The notes under the pieces: model-generated
Told to the model about the DNA's origin: nothing
The model's database searches: none
Seen by the model: only the letters and a program-made list of their open reading frames with translations
Source: a bacterium
Lineage (GTDB): Bacteria; SZUA-182
DNA length: 5,088 bases
NCBI GenBank assembly: GCA_003230635.1
Contig: QIFF01000108.1
Coordinates: forward strand, 1 to 5,088
Reading direction: 5' to 3'
Translations under genes and position numbers: made by a program
Shown here: piece after piece, positions 1 through 5,088 of the stretch
Numbering within the stretch: the stretch's first letter is position 1
How the letters are laid out: each line of letters opens with the position of its first letter

Positions 1-770
1 ATCTGGTCTGTAGCGGGGCCAGGCCCCTGGCGGTTACCAACTGCCTGAACTTCGGCAATCCGGAAAAGCCTGAAATTATGTGGCAGTTTGAGCAGGCTGT
101 CAAGGGCATAACTGAGGCCTGCCGCTGCTTTGATACGCCGGTGACCGGGGGCAATGTCAGTTTTTATAACGAAACCATGGGAGAGGGTATTTACCCCACC
201 CCGGTAATCGGGATGGTGGGATTGCTGGAGGATGGTTCGCAGCGGGTTAGCCCCTGGTTTAAGCAAGAGGGTGACCTGGTAGTCTTGTTAGGGGAAACCG
301 GAAATGACTGGGGGGGCAGCGAGTATCTTAAAATAATGCACCAGCGCTGCGACGGCAAGCCTCCACAGCTAAATTTGGAGACGGAAAAGCAACTACAAAA
401 GTTGTGCCTGGCGGCGATTGGCCAGAGCCTTATACACTCGGCCCATGACTGCTCCGAGGGCGGGCTGGCGGTAGCCCTGGCTGAATGCTGCCTGGCTCCA
501 GAGGAACAAGCTTACGGGATACACCTGGAACTGGAGAGTACTCTTCCTCCCTGGCTGGTGCTCTTTGCCGAGTCCGCCTCGCGGATTGTGGTTTCTTTGT
601 CTGAGGATAACTTACAGCATTTGCAGGAATTAGCCGGCCAGTACCAAACCCCGCTCCAGGTGTTGGGTAAGGTGGCTGGCCAGCGCCTGGTAATCGGGAA
701 ATGGATTGACCTGGGGCTAAAGGAGTTGGCCCATGCCTGGCGGGGGAGTATTGGGCGCTTGTTGCAGTAA
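1..770 (+). CDS. purL: Phosphoribosylformylglycinamidine synthase subunit PurL, C-terminal third (5' end outside window)
   Basis: PurL converts FGAR, glutamine and ATP to FGAM, the fourth step of de novo purine synthesis; in Firmicutes the small PurL acts in the cytoplasm with PurS and PurQ. The reading frame is open from base 3 and gives 255 residues ending at TAA 768-770, against about 740 for a whole B. subtilis-type PurL. Conserved family blocks are visible in order: TNCLNFGNPEKPE near the window start, TPVTGGNVSFYNET, YPTPVIGMVG, GGSEYL, and SAHDCSEGGLAVALAE, followed by the usual FAESASRIVVS segment. These belong to the second AIRS-like ATP-binding half. I see no frameshift or missing block. 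The first Met at base 78 is internal and is not the start. The next gene is a foreign-looking caspase-like gene after 51 nt, then purF. Base composition is clearly GC-richer than in that next gene. Confidence 0.96.
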   Translation, partial: LVCSGARPLAVTNCLNFGNPEKPEIMWQFEQAVKGITEACRCFDTPVTGGNVSFYNETMGEGIYPTPVIGMVGLLEDGSQRVSPWFKQEGDLVVLLGETGNDWGGSEYLKIMHQRCDGKPPQLNLETEKQLQKLCLAAIGQSLIHSAHDCSEGGLAVALAECCLAPEEQAYGIHLELESTLPPWLVLFAESASRIVVSLSEDNLQHLQELAGQYQTPLQVLGKVAGQRLVIGKWIDLGLKELAHAWRGSIGRLLQ

Positions 771-2333
771 AATTTTAAAAAAGATGTCGGCTTTAGTGAG
801 CCACATAATGAGGGAAGAAACATGAAAATAGGGTGCCTGCTAGGAGTTTCGCAGTATAAACACGAGAGTGACCTCCCGGCGTGTAAAAATGACATTGAAC
901 TCATCGAAAAAATTCTCAAAGCTACAAGTGGGTACGATGAAGTCCTTTGTCTCGCAACAAATCAACCCAGTTCTAAAATCAAGCAACAGATTGTAAGTTT
1001 CCTCACTCAGTTTAAAGACAACCAAATAAGTCAAGTTCTTTTCTACTTTACTGGTCATGGTGACTTTGATGGAAAAGAATTTTACTACTTGTTAAACGAT
1101 TTTGAAACCTCTCGGCGTAAGCAAACAGCCATTGAAAATAGTGAACTAGATGAGTGGCTCCGCATCTTGAACCCAGAACTCACGGTGAAAATAGTGGATG
1201 CATGCCATGCCGGAGTTCAATACATCAAAGACCCGGAGGCATTCGGAAAATATCTCCATGAAATAAAGCCAAAGGCATTCAAAAACTGTTATTTTATGTA
1301 TTCTTCTCAGAAGGAAGAATATTCTTATCAAGACCATGAGTTGAGTCATTTTACAAGGAGTTTCGCTAAATCTATTGCTAACTTCAGCGGGACAGAAATG
1401 CGTTTTAAAGATGTTATTGATTATATTTCCGACGATTTTGAAACTAGTCCCAATCAAACACCGCTTTTCGTAACACAAGCAACCAACACAGAGACTTTCA
1501 CGGCCATAGATGGAAAGCTCCGACATCTGATTTCACAACACTTGTCAAGCTATGCTCCACTGGGAGCAAGCGCAACAGCAGCCACTTTATCCTCAGCAGT
1601 AACAGATAAGAAGACATCACTGATTGAATTTGTCAAGACAGATGCAAAAAGGTATTGCACAAAGGATGAACTCATGGAAAGGTTGGAGGCCATAAAAAAA
1701 TTCTGGGACGACCCTTCATTGAGCGATGAAGTGAGCGAACTATATAACTTTGATATTGCCTTATTAGCCAGTCTTGTTGGGGAAGTTCCGAGATTAAAGG
1801 ACGTCGGGAAATGGCTTGCGGAAAATAAAAATGACTATTTTGCTGAGCCAACTTACACAATGGAGGAGTACACAAAAGAAATTGAGGTGCCAATGAAAAC
1901 TAGTTCCTGGTTAGCCCCAGTGAGCCTATTTTCTTCGCGACCATGCACAATAGAGACTGTGACAAGGGAACGTAAGGTTTGTACGGGTTATCATCTCACA
2001 CAAGACACGGATTTTGTAGCAGTTCGTGTGGCAGCTATACCAAAGTTTCAGAACCTCAAGTGGCATGATTTCCATCTGGTTTTCGTATTTTCAAAAACAG
2101 AGATTAGATTTTTCTATTTATTTAGTGTGTTTAAAGAAATTAATTGGGCGGAGAGAAAACGCTATCCAGTAGAGCCAGAGAAATGGCGCATGCTAGTTGC
2201 TCAGCTCAAAGATCAAAGTGATATTACCCACTTACTCGAGAAAATTGTCGTTGAGTTTGGCAACTATATCATGGAACCAATTCGCTCAGAGTTTTTGCCT
2301 TCCAACACAGACGATACTAGACAGGAATTGCAG
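768..2333 (+). mobile_element. Putative inserted segment between purL and purF carrying the caspase-like gene
   Basis: This is an inferred insertion, not a recognised element. Seen: TTGCAG occurs at 762-767 as the last two sense codons of purL and again at 2328-2333, in the same frame, four codons before the stop of the caspase-like gene. Removing 768-2333 (1566 bp, a multiple of three) would fuse purL directly to GATAAATAA followed by GT and the purF ATG. That gives a PurL ending LLQDK, with the purF AGGA ribosome site kept in place. The segment is visibly AT-richer than both flanks. There is no transposase, integrase, terminal inverted repeat or att site. A chance 6-bp match is quite possible, so the boundaries are tentative. 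Confidence 0.35.
810..817 (+). promoter_or_regulatory. Shine-Dalgarno site of the caspase-like gene
   Basis: GAGGGAAG lies just upstream of the ATG at 822, with the AGGG core (811-814) separated from the start by 7 nt. It supports this start and suggests the gene can be translated independently of purL, whose stop is 51 nt upstream. The rest of the 771-821 gap holds an A/T-rich run and a 4-bp stem (789-792 with 799-802), too weak to call a terminator. Confidence 0.6.
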
Positions 2334-2342
2334 GATAAATAA
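822..2342 (+). CDS. Caspase-like (peptidase C14/metacaspase-type) protease with an unassigned C-terminal region
   Basis: This 506-residue protein has a caspase-hemoglobinase fold domain at about residues 1-232. [19 protein letters not shown] is the typical first strand and helix, YFTGHGD holds the catalytic His79, and KIVDACHAG holds the nucleophile Cys128. Asp126, two residues before Cys128, and Asp24 in the PACKND motif match acidic S1-pocket positions of metacaspases. I therefore infer cleavage after Arg or Lys rather than Asp. No signal peptide or clear membrane segment is visible, so it is probably cytoplasmic. Residues 233-260 form a Ser/Ala/Thr-rich linker. Residues about 261-506 match no family I can name; they have a charged helical part (264-350), a Cys-containing segment (about 361-390) and an aromatic, probably beta-rich part (about 395-440). 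The gene is markedly AT-richer than its neighbours and sits between purL and purF, which suggests horizontal acquisition. Bacterial caspase-like proteases act in phage defence, regulated death or signalling; which applies here is unknown. Confidence 0.9.
2323..2335 (+). promoter_or_regulatory. Ribosome binding site for purF inside the caspase gene end
   Basis: Two AGGA motifs (2323-2326 and 2332-2335) lie within the last codons of the caspase-like gene. The second is 9 nt from the purF ATG at 2345, a good Shine-Dalgarno distance. With only 2 nt between the caspase stop and the purF start, translational coupling is likely. Confidence 0.55.
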
Positions 2343-2344
2343 GT

Positions 2345-3775
2345 ATGTTTGAAGCAAAAGAAAAATGCGGGGTTTTCGGGATTTACGGCCATAAGGAGGC
2401 GGCTAACCTGACTTACCTGGGTTTGTACGCCCTGCAGCATCGCGGTCAGGAAAGCGCCGGGAGTCAGGAAAGCGCCGGGATTGTTTCCTTTGACGGTGAT
2501 TACCTGCACCTGGAGAAGGGGATCGGCCTGGTGGCGGATGTCTTTGATGAGGAGCGCTTACAGGCTTTACCCGGTTTTACTGCCATCGGTCATGTGCGTT
2601 ATTCCACCACCGGCGGCACCCTCTTGAAAAACGCCCAGCCCTTTGTGGTGGACTACGCCCGCGGCTCACTGGGGATTGCCCATAACGGTAATCTGGTTAA
2701 CGCCCAAATAGTGCGGGAGCGGCTGGAGGATGAAGGCTCCATTTTTCAATCCACCATGGATACCGAAATCGTCGCCCACTTGATTGCCCGCTCCCCCTGC
2801 CCCCTCTTTGAGGACGCCCTGGTAGATGCCCTCAGCAAAGTGCAGGGGGCCTATAGTATGGTCTTGTTGACTCCCAAAAAGTTGGTAGGGGTGCGCGATC
2901 CTTATGGTTTTCGCCCCTTGATTTTGGGACGCTTGGATGGGGCTTATATCCTGACCTCGGAAAGCTGTGTCTTGGACCTGATCGAGGCCGAGTATGTGCG
3001 GGATATAGAGCCGGGCGAGGTGGTGGTGATTGACAAAGAGGGCTTGCGCAGTTATAAGCCCTTCCCCCTGATGCGGGAGGCTTTTTGCATCTTTGAATTC
3101 ATCTATTTTGCCCGCCCTGACAGCAATTTCGGCGGAGAAAATGTTGCCCAGGTGCGGAAAAGGTTAGGCCGGCAACTGGCCCGCGAAACTCCGGTAGAAG
3201 CAGACATTGTCGTTCCTGTGCTTGATTCAGGGGTTTATGCCGCTATGGGTTATGCCGCTATGGGATACGCTGCGGAGTCAGGCCTTCCTCTTGAGCGCGG
3301 GCTGGTGCGCAATCACTACGTTGGCCGCACCTTTATTGAGCCGCGCCAGGCCATCCGTCACTTTGGGGTCAAAATCAAGCTCAATCCAGTTAGAAAACTG
3401 CTGGAGGGCAAGAGGGTGATTGTGGTGGATGACTCCATTGTTAGGGGCACCACCAGCCGCAAAATTATCGCCATGATCCGCCAGGCCGGAGCTAAGGAGG
3501 TGCATATGCGCATCAGCGCTCCCCCCAGTAAATTCCCCTGTTTCTATGGGATTGACACCCCCACCCGCAAGGAATTGATCGCCGCCACCAAGAGTGTGGA
3601 GGAAATCTCCCAATACCTTACCACTGACTCCCTGGGCTACCTGAGCCTGGAGGGCCTGCTTCAGACGGTGGGGAGAGAAGACAACGGCTTCTGCACCGCC
3701 TGCTTTTCCGGTAATTATCCCATCAAGTCTTCCTGGAGAAAGAAGCGCCAGTTGAGGCTGTTCGAGAGGGTATGA
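2345..3775 (+). CDS. purF: Amidophosphoribosyltransferase (glutamine PRPP amidotransferase), with two small internal duplications
   Basis: PurF makes 5-phosphoribosylamine from PRPP and glutamine, the committed first step of purine synthesis, in the cytoplasm. The 476 residues begin with a seven-residue propeptide (MFEAKEK) before the N-terminal nucleophile Cys8 of the Ntn-hydrolase glutaminase domain. [19 protein letters not shown] (82-91) and AHNGNLVNA (112-120) follow. The PRPP loop of the C-terminal phosphoribosyltransferase domain is [13 protein letters not shown] (358-370). Cys248, Cys399, Cys450 and Cys453 match the four Fe-S ligands of the B. subtilis-type enzyme. Three oddities stand out. 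QESAG is duplicated (residues 35-39 and 41-45), the AAMGY stretch is duplicated (299-308), and the usual PDSG motif reads LDSG (Leu293). Without the 11 extra residues the protein would be 465 long. All recognised catalytic residues remain, so activity is plausible but uncertain. It starts 2 nt after the caspase-like gene and overlaps the next gene by 4 nt. Confidence 0.96.
2445..2480 (+). repeat. Perfect 18-bp tandem duplication in purF glutaminase domain
   Basis: The unit gtcaggaaagcgccggga occurs at 2445-2462 and again at 2463-2480 with no mismatch. It adds six residues, so the conserved HRGQESAGI motif reads [15 protein letters not shown]. The copies are identical, which implies a recent slippage or recombination event, or an assembly error. 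The reading frame is kept. Confidence 0.95.
3235..3264 (+). repeat. Perfect 15-bp tandem duplication in purF phosphoribosyltransferase domain
   Basis: The unit ttatgccgctatggg occurs at 3235-3249 and 3250-3264 with no mismatch. It inserts five residues, giving [16 protein letters not shown] where the family normally has one copy. It is the second exact in-frame tandem duplication in the same gene, and it lies a few codons after the altered LDSG motif. Confidence 0.95.
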
Positions 3776-4707
3776 GTACCTTTATTGAATGGTCGCGAAA
3801 ATTGATGGGCTTAAGTCCTGAACTCCAAGGAAAGTTTTGGCTCTCATTCCTCATTATTTTTGTCCTCTGGCTTCTGCGCAAGTTACTCTTGTCATTAGTA
3901 TTGCCCAGGATTGAAGATTTGCGCATTCGTTATCAATGGCGCAAATCTTCCAGCTACCTGGCTGCTGCTATCGGCATATTGCTGATCGGGCGCATATGGT
4001 TTGCAGGGTTTAAAACCATAGCAACCTTTTTGGGTCTATTATCTGCCGGTCTGGCGATTGCCCTGAAAGACCCATTAGTAAATCTTGCCGGCTGGATTTT
4101 TATCATCTGGCGGCGGCCGCTTGAGGTGGGGGACCGGGTTCAAATTGGGGAACATGCGGGAGATGTTATTGACTTGCGGATATTTCAATTTACCCTTTTG
4201 GAAATAGGCAACTGGGTTGATGCGGATCAAAGCACCGGCAGGGTCCTTCATATCCCCAACGGCAAGGTCTTTACGGAAATGCTGGCCAATTACAGTAAGG
4301 GCTTCCAATACATCTGGCACGAAATTTCTGTTCTGGTAACCTTTGAGAGCGACTGGCAAAAAGCAAAAGACATATTGCAGAAAATCGCAAACAAACACTC
4401 AGAACACCTGAGCAAATCGGCTGCAAAAAAGGTAAAAGAGGCAGCGCAAAAATTCCTCATATTTTACTCCAAGCTAACCCCCACCGTTTATACAAGCGTC
4501 AAAGACAGCGGCATCCTTTTAACAATACGTTACCTTTCTGAACCGCGCCTCCGCCGCGGCAGCCAGCAAGCCATCTGGGAAGATATTTTGCGGGAATTCG
4601 CTGAATGTGAGGATATAGATTTCGCCTACCCCACCCAACGATTTTATAATAACCTTCTTGAGGGAAAAGTGGGGGCTAAACCCTCTTCAGATACAAACCC
4701 CACATAG
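3772..4707 (+). CDS. MscS-family small-conductance mechanosensitive ion channel
   Basis: This 311-residue inner-membrane protein should form a tension-gated channel that releases solutes on hypo-osmotic shock. Hydrophobic segments are at about residues 22-45 and 62-80. The pore-lining TM3 region (about 83-112) contains [17 protein letters not shown] and then [20 protein letters not shown], the classic junction into the MscS beta domain. [10 protein letters not shown] (158-167) is the conserved beta-domain end motif. A cytoplasmic alpha/beta domain follows, with a lysine-rich stretch at about 203-227. The ATG overlaps the purF stop as ATGA. The purine-rich GAGAGGG (3764-3770) ends only one base before the ATG, too close for a normal Shine-Dalgarno, so coupling to purF translation is likely. 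The next in-frame ATG (codon 12) has no better site. Channels of this family have no known part in purine synthesis, so the pairing may only reflect gene packing. Base composition is intermediate, with AT-rich patches. Confidence 0.93.
3913..3950 (+). repeat. Perfect 12-bp inverted repeat (hairpin) inside the mscS-like gene
   Basis: GAAGATTTGCGC (3913-3924) is exactly complementary to GCGCAAATCTTC (3939-3950), with a 14-nt loop. Inside the loop ATT (3925-3927) can pair with AAT (3935-3937) if G3938 is bulged. It encodes residues 48-60, between TM1 and TM2. There is no T-run after it, so it is not a standard intrinsic terminator. Its role is unknown. Confidence 0.9.
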
Positions 4708-4736: not shown

Positions 4737-5088
4737 TTGCCAGTTTCCTCCCGCTACCACAAATTCAGCCTCCACCTCGGGCGGCAATTCGGGTGCCGGG
4801 TGCAGAAGATTCCCCTTAACGCCGGTTTTAGTTGTCCCAACCGCGATGGTGGTCTGGGCAAGGATGGCTGCATTTATTGCGGGGCGCAGGGGGCGGGGGC
4901 CGAACTCGGTCAGAATTTCCTCAGCGTGCGCCGGCAGATGCTGGAAGGAATGCGCAATACCTCCAAGAAACATCCCGACTGCAAGTTCATCGCTTACTTC
5001 CAAGCCTTTTCCAATACCTATGCCCCGGTAGAGACTTTAAACAGGTTGTATAAGGAAGCCCTGGGCGTTGATCCGCGGGTGATTGGTC
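4737..5088 (+). CDS. TIGR01212-type (YtqA/YhcC-like) radical SAM protein, N-terminal part (3' end outside window)
   Basis: The frame is open from 4713 to the window end and gives 117 residues from a TTG at 4737, about a third of a normal 300-330-residue member. RYHKFSLHLGRQFG, then NAGFSCPNRDGG and DGCIYCGAQG, then KFIAYFQAFSNTYAPVE are the family's signature blocks as I recall them from B. subtilis YtqA and E. coli YhcC. Cys33, Cys45 and Cys48 (spacing C-x11-C-x2-C) should hold the [4Fe-4S] cluster that cleaves S-adenosylmethionine. The biological substrate of the family is not established. No ATG is in frame. GTG at 4800 would remove the conserved RYHKF block, so TTG 4737 is preferred; ATT 4719, 9 nt after an AGGA (4706-4709), is an unusual alternative. 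The gene follows the mscS-like stop by 29 nt on the same strand, with no terminator between them. Confidence 0.88.
   Translation, partial: MPVSSRYHKFSLHLGRQFGCRVQKIPLNAGFSCPNRDGGLGKDGCIYCGAQGAGAELGQNFLSVRRQMLEGMRNTSKKHPDCKFIAYFQAFSNTYAPVETLNRLYKEALGVDPRVIG

Follow-up and report, generated by a model that had tools for sequence, protein, structure and literature searches.

A solitary caspase gene between purL and purF suggests a one-gene bacterial defence system

A 5,088-base stretch of bacterial DNA (the window) carries, between the purine-synthesis genes purL and purF, a gene for a caspase-type protease fused to a C-terminal domain of its own. Comparison with relatives in other genomes suggests that this solitary two-domain caspase is a one-gene defence system. 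The reading that we favour on balance is that of a self-sufficient sensor-protease, which would serve immunity against phages or plasmids and would have been acquired between purL and purF. Caspase-type proteases in phage defence are already known; what is new is the solitary family, its private C-terminal domain and its mobility in integrons and prophages.

The gene and its place between purL and purF

The gene (822..2342, forward strand) starts with ATG, encodes 506 amino acids and has no internal stop. In the window, the end of purL is followed by the caspase gene, purF, a mechanosensitive-channel gene and the start of a further ORF. The upstream flank (3..770, forward strand) matches AIRS and AIRS_C (the latter at 1.8e-17) and is called purL from the gene order and the first-pass annotation; the downstream flank (2345..3775, forward strand) is purF (TIGR01134, 4.1e-161). 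Direct reading of the sequence gives GAGGGA (810..815, forward strand) as the likely ribosome-binding site of the caspase gene. Two bases separate its stop codon from the ATG of purF, and the likely ribosome-binding site of purF, read from its spacing, falls within the 3′ end of the caspase gene. With a plain ribosome-binding site and a stop so close to the purF start, the gene fits closely into the operon, and it is likely transcribed together with the purine genes.

The first-pass annotation had described an intact 506-codon gene with a caspase dyad, AT-richer than its flanks and embedded between two adjacent purine-synthesis genes, and in all these respects it was right. The GC content of the caspase gene is 40.3%, against 56.4% in purL, 55.3% in purF and 46.4% in the channel gene; at third codon positions (GC3) the values are 39, 67, 66, and 51%, respectively. 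The junction was compared at six purF loci, all from a single phylum of distant relatives and the best among 254 matching genomes (297 searched); PurF there is about 63–65% identical. At five of these distant loci purL ends about 0–100 bases ahead of the purF start, leaving no space for a gene, and at the sixth no purL match was found. Since purL and purF are adjacent in distant relatives, the caspase gene is an insertion in an old junction, probably acquired from elsewhere and then lodged there.

A sister lineage probably shares the gene: a caspase relative (P0002, 80%) and a PurF relative (P0122, 82%) come from the same source, and for each the longest contig is given as 29,165 bp. One sister contig therefore probably carries both, and the insertion is probably older than that split. 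The longest contigs of the next three PurF relatives (78–80%) are absent among the 120 caspase matches listed. The first-pass annotation had held that presence at this locus throughout the clade, with matching codon use, would speak against its interpretation. The probable sister contig goes a small way towards the former, but the codon use is unlike that of the flanks.

The downstream flank has features of its own. purF contains two perfect tandem duplications, one of 18 bp (2445–2480), which adds six residues by the QESAG motif, and one of 15 bp (3235–3264), which adds five (YAAMG); both are absent in the eight PurF relatives aligned. The 18-bp duplication is either a recent mutation or an assembly error. 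The channel gene (3772–4707), of the MscS type, shares 4 bases with the 3′ end of purF. The last ORF begins at 4737; its visible part (4737–5087) has no Pfam match and presumably resembles a radical SAM protein of the YhcC type.

The protease and its C-terminal domain

Sequence comparison and structure prediction together support a two-part protein: an N-terminal caspase-fold protease, in which the His79–Cys128 dyad is intact and acidic residues are conserved, and a private domain joined to its C-terminal side. The caspase domain, of paracaspase/metacaspase-like type, spans residues 1–230 (822..1511, forward strand). It matches Pfam Peptidase_C14 (PF00656) over residues 6–218 with an E-value of 1.2e-14 and 55 bits, above the gathering cut-off of 21.4, and it has the His-Cys dyad on a caspase fold that characterizes members of PF00656. 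Its best fold match is MALT1, and it is of the general orthocaspase/metacaspase kind.

The predicted catalytic residues are His79 in TGHGD (codon 1056..1058) and Cys128 in DACHAG (codon 1203..1205). Together with Asp24 (codon 891..893) and Asp126 (codon 1197..1199), all on the forward strand, they occur in every one of 72 full-length rows, drawn from the window, 68 genome loci and three plasmid loci. This conservation is partly selected, as the genome loci were retrieved with patterns containing TGHG or DAC. In an alignment of 91 proteins, whose members were found with search words other than the dyad patterns, His79, Lys123, Asp126 and Cys128 are invariant and Asp24 is conserved in at least 90%. 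Asp24 is predicted to form an acidic S1 pocket, with Asp126 as the second S1 acid, and we take the two to be equivalents of the S1 aspartates of MALT1 and metacaspases. In those enzymes the acidic S1 residues confer a preference for Arg or Lys.

A variable linker (residues 231–263; 1512..1610, forward strand), in which residues 251–263 fall below pLDDT 50, leads to the C-terminal domain (residues 264–495; 1611..2306, forward strand). The latter is predicted to have five helices and eight strands, the last helix being long; modelled alone with AF2 it reaches a pLDDT of 94.5 and a pTM of 0.86. A PDB search gave no match at E ≤ 0.001 and no clear fold match, and no Pfam match was found for this domain in the window's own row. 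When its profile was searched beyond full-length caspases, two matches appeared, both of them N-truncated family members by eye. The domain also diverges faster than the protease (mean identity 20 vs. 41%), its identity being lower in 2278 of 2278 pairs. A C-terminal half that is predicted to be folded, and is private and fast-diverging, fits the role in sensing that the first-pass annotation had suggested, without proving it; faster divergence of a non-catalytic domain has causes other than an arms race too.

Movement and neighbors of the family

Among 5.8 billion proteins searched, with candidates restricted to 0.55–1.75 times the query length, 247 of the 7997 candidates scored are relatives. 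Among 120 matches listed (including the window's own protein), 114 cover at least 90% of the query. Genome loci were confirmed in 106 cases, and the best 80 of these, with four plasmid loci, make up the 84 loci compared. The occurrence of the family is rare and patchy: members are found in four of 296 Bacteroidota genomes, two of them known beforehand, and in the class of Enterovibrio in one of 369, which is the known center. The caspase gene is lower in GC than the rest of its locus at all 75 testable loci of the 80 (by 10.6 points on average), and its GC3 is below that of the median ORF at 70 of the 75.

At two loci the gene is a single-gene integron cassette flanked by an attC on either side. 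The Halanaerobacter jeridensis locus (L002) has six attC-like sites, co-oriented and closely alike, each about 131 bp long and preceded by one or two ORFs; the caspase gene (133–1596) lies between an attC end upstream (to base 98) and an attC directly downstream (1620–1750). In Aquabacterium fontiphilum (L073), the gene is preceded, at a distance of about 50 bp, by an attC that was recognized by eye and has its end near 9947, and a second attC (11503–11622) overlaps the last ten bases of the gene; the array has six sites with a stricter core and more with a looser core. No attC-like sites were found on the opposite strand at either locus. The sites come from an in-house pattern, not from IntegronFinder, and the upstream attC ends were read by eye. 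The Moritella copy (L047) sits among repeated attC-like elements, and upstream of the Pseudoalteromonas copy (L048) a canonical-looking attC is recognized by eye. The genomes of L047, L048 and L073 each encode an integron integrase that scores above the curated cut-off (for the last, 306 bits, or 384.5 with neighbors). In the window, pattern and eye found no attC-like core pair at the edges of the gene (700–830 and 2300–2420).

The extent of similarity between loci supports, at the level of sequence, the view that relatives have passed from replicon to replicon and from host to host as one gene on its own. L047 and L048, which come from different families, are 89.6% identical over 1695 bp, comprising the gene with 39 bp before and 115 bp after it, and nothing further in 21 kb. 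Two virus-derived contigs (L089 and L092) are 86.2% identical over the gene and about 98 and 148 bp beside it. Among 247 locus pairs whose nucleotide sequences are similar across the gene, 232 have no other shared stretch of at least 200 bp, and their similarity reaches less than 300 bp past the gene at each end; many of the 232 are distant pairs, in which shared flanks are not expected, and the close pairs are the informative ones. The 15 exceptions are ten pairs within a near-identical Lachnospiraceae group, L057/L067, L033/L056, and three among L085, L086 and L087. A gene that repeatedly moves alone as a one-ORF cassette must be useful alone or with host parts that are present everywhere.

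Phage-like and plasmid locations are also found. Fifteen virus-derived loci (IMG/VR contigs) carry a family member, and a search of 50,697 phage records gave no family match. In L087, L088 and L043 (the last, judged by its length, being the same contig as L091), the gene lies between a P2-type tail completion gene and a baseplate gene (PHROG descriptions), which we take to be gpS and gpV, and L096 ends within the caspase gene, so that the presumed gpS side alone is visible. This junction recurs as a caspase site in P2-type prophages and may be a cargo hotspot. On the tree the P2-type copies do not cluster by themselves: L088 pairs with an E. coli plasmid copy (support 92), L043 with L041 (93), and L087 with L085/L086 (100). 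All of them lie inside one ten-row group (support 90), so the site may have a shared older origin.

Among 72,556 plasmid records seven match, three of them over at least 80% of the query. The carriers include a Paraclostridium plasmid of 6.5 kb, on which four genes are annotated, a Klebsiella plasmid of 4.9 kb, on which five are (a distant member, 28% identity over 69%), and large plasmids. With an E. coli copy as query, 174 of 5426 E. coli genomes match, but only three hold at least 80% of the query and 171 are partial; 39 of the 40 rows listed have the 3′ end only and are mostly plasmid-borne. In one such remnant record (L120, 2974–3543), the remnant is a 190-codon ORF, annotated as hypothetical, that directly adjoins an IS2 transposase gene. 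Chromosomal sites recur as well. In two Methylococcaceae (L033, L056) the caspase gene lies between pyrG- and eno-like genes, and in a Rhodospirillales (L077) both genes are near, arranged otherwise (all named by eye). By its gene order, the pyrG/eno region reads as a further housekeeping-region insertion.

In the tree, Bacteroidota form one clade of 15 rows and Pseudomonadota require seven changes. The amount of phylum signal, together with the single group of P2-type copies, implies that transfer is often within a lineage. The nearest relatives of the window protein include both Methanothrix-named bins (P0025, P0026) and Pseudomonadota (P0018), so that passage of the gene between archaea and bacteria is likely; bins can be contaminated.

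No partner gene is conserved across the 84 loci, nor is there a conserved antitoxin-like one. The commonest neighbor family, an integrase by eye, occurs beside the caspase gene at eight loci, followed by an ABC-transporter-like family at seven and a type I methylase-like family at four (both by eye). The suggestion of the first-pass annotation that the gene lacks an obvious partner and is a stand-alone unit thus gains from the wider comparison, in which no neighbor recurs beyond 8 of 84 loci and similarity ends at the gene.

It had also been proposed to look for defence genes around homologs, and known ones are indeed common nearby. For 20 loci, PADLOC models were compared with 139 of the 248 proteins encoded up to 7 kb from the caspase gene (the near set); 135 of 255 proteins encoded far from it on these contigs served as control. 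At E ≤ 1e-10, 126 models match in the near set vs. 25 in the control; these are counts of models and not of proteins, since one methylase can match dozens of models. At the head of the near set are methyltransferases of types I and II, a type II restriction enzyme, HamA (2.4e-124), and MzaA, and two HpaII-type enzymes are among the caspase neighbors. The strongest control match is an RtcR-type regulator (2.6e-97); the rest are mostly helicase-like or generic, with restriction models at 1.4e-17 or weaker. A second near set, without a control of its own, covered 138 of 325 proteins at 48 of 56 further loci and matches 136 models at E 1e-20, including Old (6.6e-237), GajB (1.7e-216), and PDC-S27. 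At E ≤ 1e-20, two of ten sizeable near neighbors match, and one of nine immediate ones. The enrichment looks real and is not decisive. The window caspase itself gives a weak PADLOC match (5.1e-6).

Proposed role, alternatives and known systems

Movement alone, the company of defence genes, the cargo sites in prophages and AT-richness make immunity the likeliest role. The C-terminal domain would keep the protease inactive until a cue arrives from an invading phage or plasmid. The activated protease would then cut proteins after Arg or Lys, and the cell would be killed or arrested (abortive infection); alternatively, it would cut a protein of the invader. More tentatively, the whole family may be a portable one-gene immune protein, in which the C-terminal domain, itself without a fold match, would suffice to recognize a feature of a phage or plasmid and to switch on the protease, and which has spread via cassettes, prophages, small plasmids and operons through bacterial phyla and probably archaea (the Methanothrix bins). 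We hold this broader proposal to be possible rather than probable.

Location on mobile elements fits toxins and stabilizing genes too. On plasmids and inside P2-type late gene clusters, the caspase could serve the carrier rather than immunity, as a stabilizing toxin or as a phage gene for infection, lysis or competition. The lack of a conserved antitoxin-like partner argues against this, as does the presence of the gene in chromosomal operons and integrons, as in the window, where no element to be served is visible, and we consider such a role unlikely. Less likely still is a host protease for stress or proteostasis, like the studied orthocaspases, acquired by chance. The kind of caspase domain and the place of the window gene inside a housekeeping operon would agree with it, but a family that is rare and patchy, AT-rich at 75 of 75 loci, and partial in 171 of 174 matching E. 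coli genomes does not behave as a housekeeping gene. The protein could also be an effector that depends on a signal produced by some other component of the cell, its C-terminal domain binding the ligand. Type IV Thoeris offers a precedent (PMC12847820), and the predicted compact, well-folded state of the domain makes ligand binding plausible. However, no neighbor family goes beyond 8 of 84 loci, none of the five window proteins scanned with Pfam (within 5,088 bases), hence none of the four others, matches a TIR family, and the gene travels alone as a cassette, which favors self-sufficiency. We therefore regard dependence on such a signal as improbable. The self-sufficient sensor-protease remains our preferred reading.

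As far as the accessible parts of the sources go, bacterial caspase defences mostly depend on a separate sensor, signal or target gene. Borvo is a single-gene system. Its protease is of the CHAT type, from the caspase clan, and is reported in defence in the available part of the source (PMC10952713). CHAT corresponds to PF12770, whereas the window protein matches PF00656, with PF12770 absent up to E 0.1. In type IV Thoeris, as described in the portion accessible, a TIR protein makes a nucleotide that activates a caspase-like protease, which is said to degrade cellular proteins (PMC12847820). The effector resembles the window protein in being a bacterial caspase-like protease, but the TIR gene is in the same operon, and none is seen in the window. 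Canu, in the accessible text, consists of the caspase CanA, CanB and the nuclease CanC and acts in phage defence (PMC12799240). CanA is a MALT1-like bacterial caspase, MALT1 being also the best fold match here. Canu differs in its linked pro-nuclease and CanB, the window neighbors being purL, purF, the MscS gene and an incomplete ORF. The C-terminus of CanA is Ig-like; the C-terminal domain here has no clear fold match. The nearest curated caspase model, NF047832 (caspase_w_EACC1), gives 61.9 bits over residues 5–186, below its cut-off of 140.

Orthocaspases, or prokaryotic metacaspases, share the caspase p20-type domain with its HC dyad; a survey counted 398 sequences with the metacaspase Pfam domain only (PMC3501461, in the part accessible). 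The solitary family may be hidden among them, and the same part describes neither a C-terminal domain of the window type nor solitary mobility. A literature search found no description of this solitary caspase family. If the caspase works alone, it would be the simplest form of caspase immunity; the question of triggering would become directly testable in one polypeptide, and the C-terminal domain might offer a new sensing fold.

Integrons are described, in the accessible part of one review, as reservoirs of small defence systems, with cassettes in chromosomal integrons (PMC12409362). L002 and L073 are likewise cassette-borne, and that part names no caspase cassette. Caspase genes are seen moving as integron cassettes, by a route now tied to phage defence. 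The Halanaerobacter genome has a cassette array (L002, 1620–9309), yet its integron integrase match, at 119.7 bits, is below the curated cut-off of 265.
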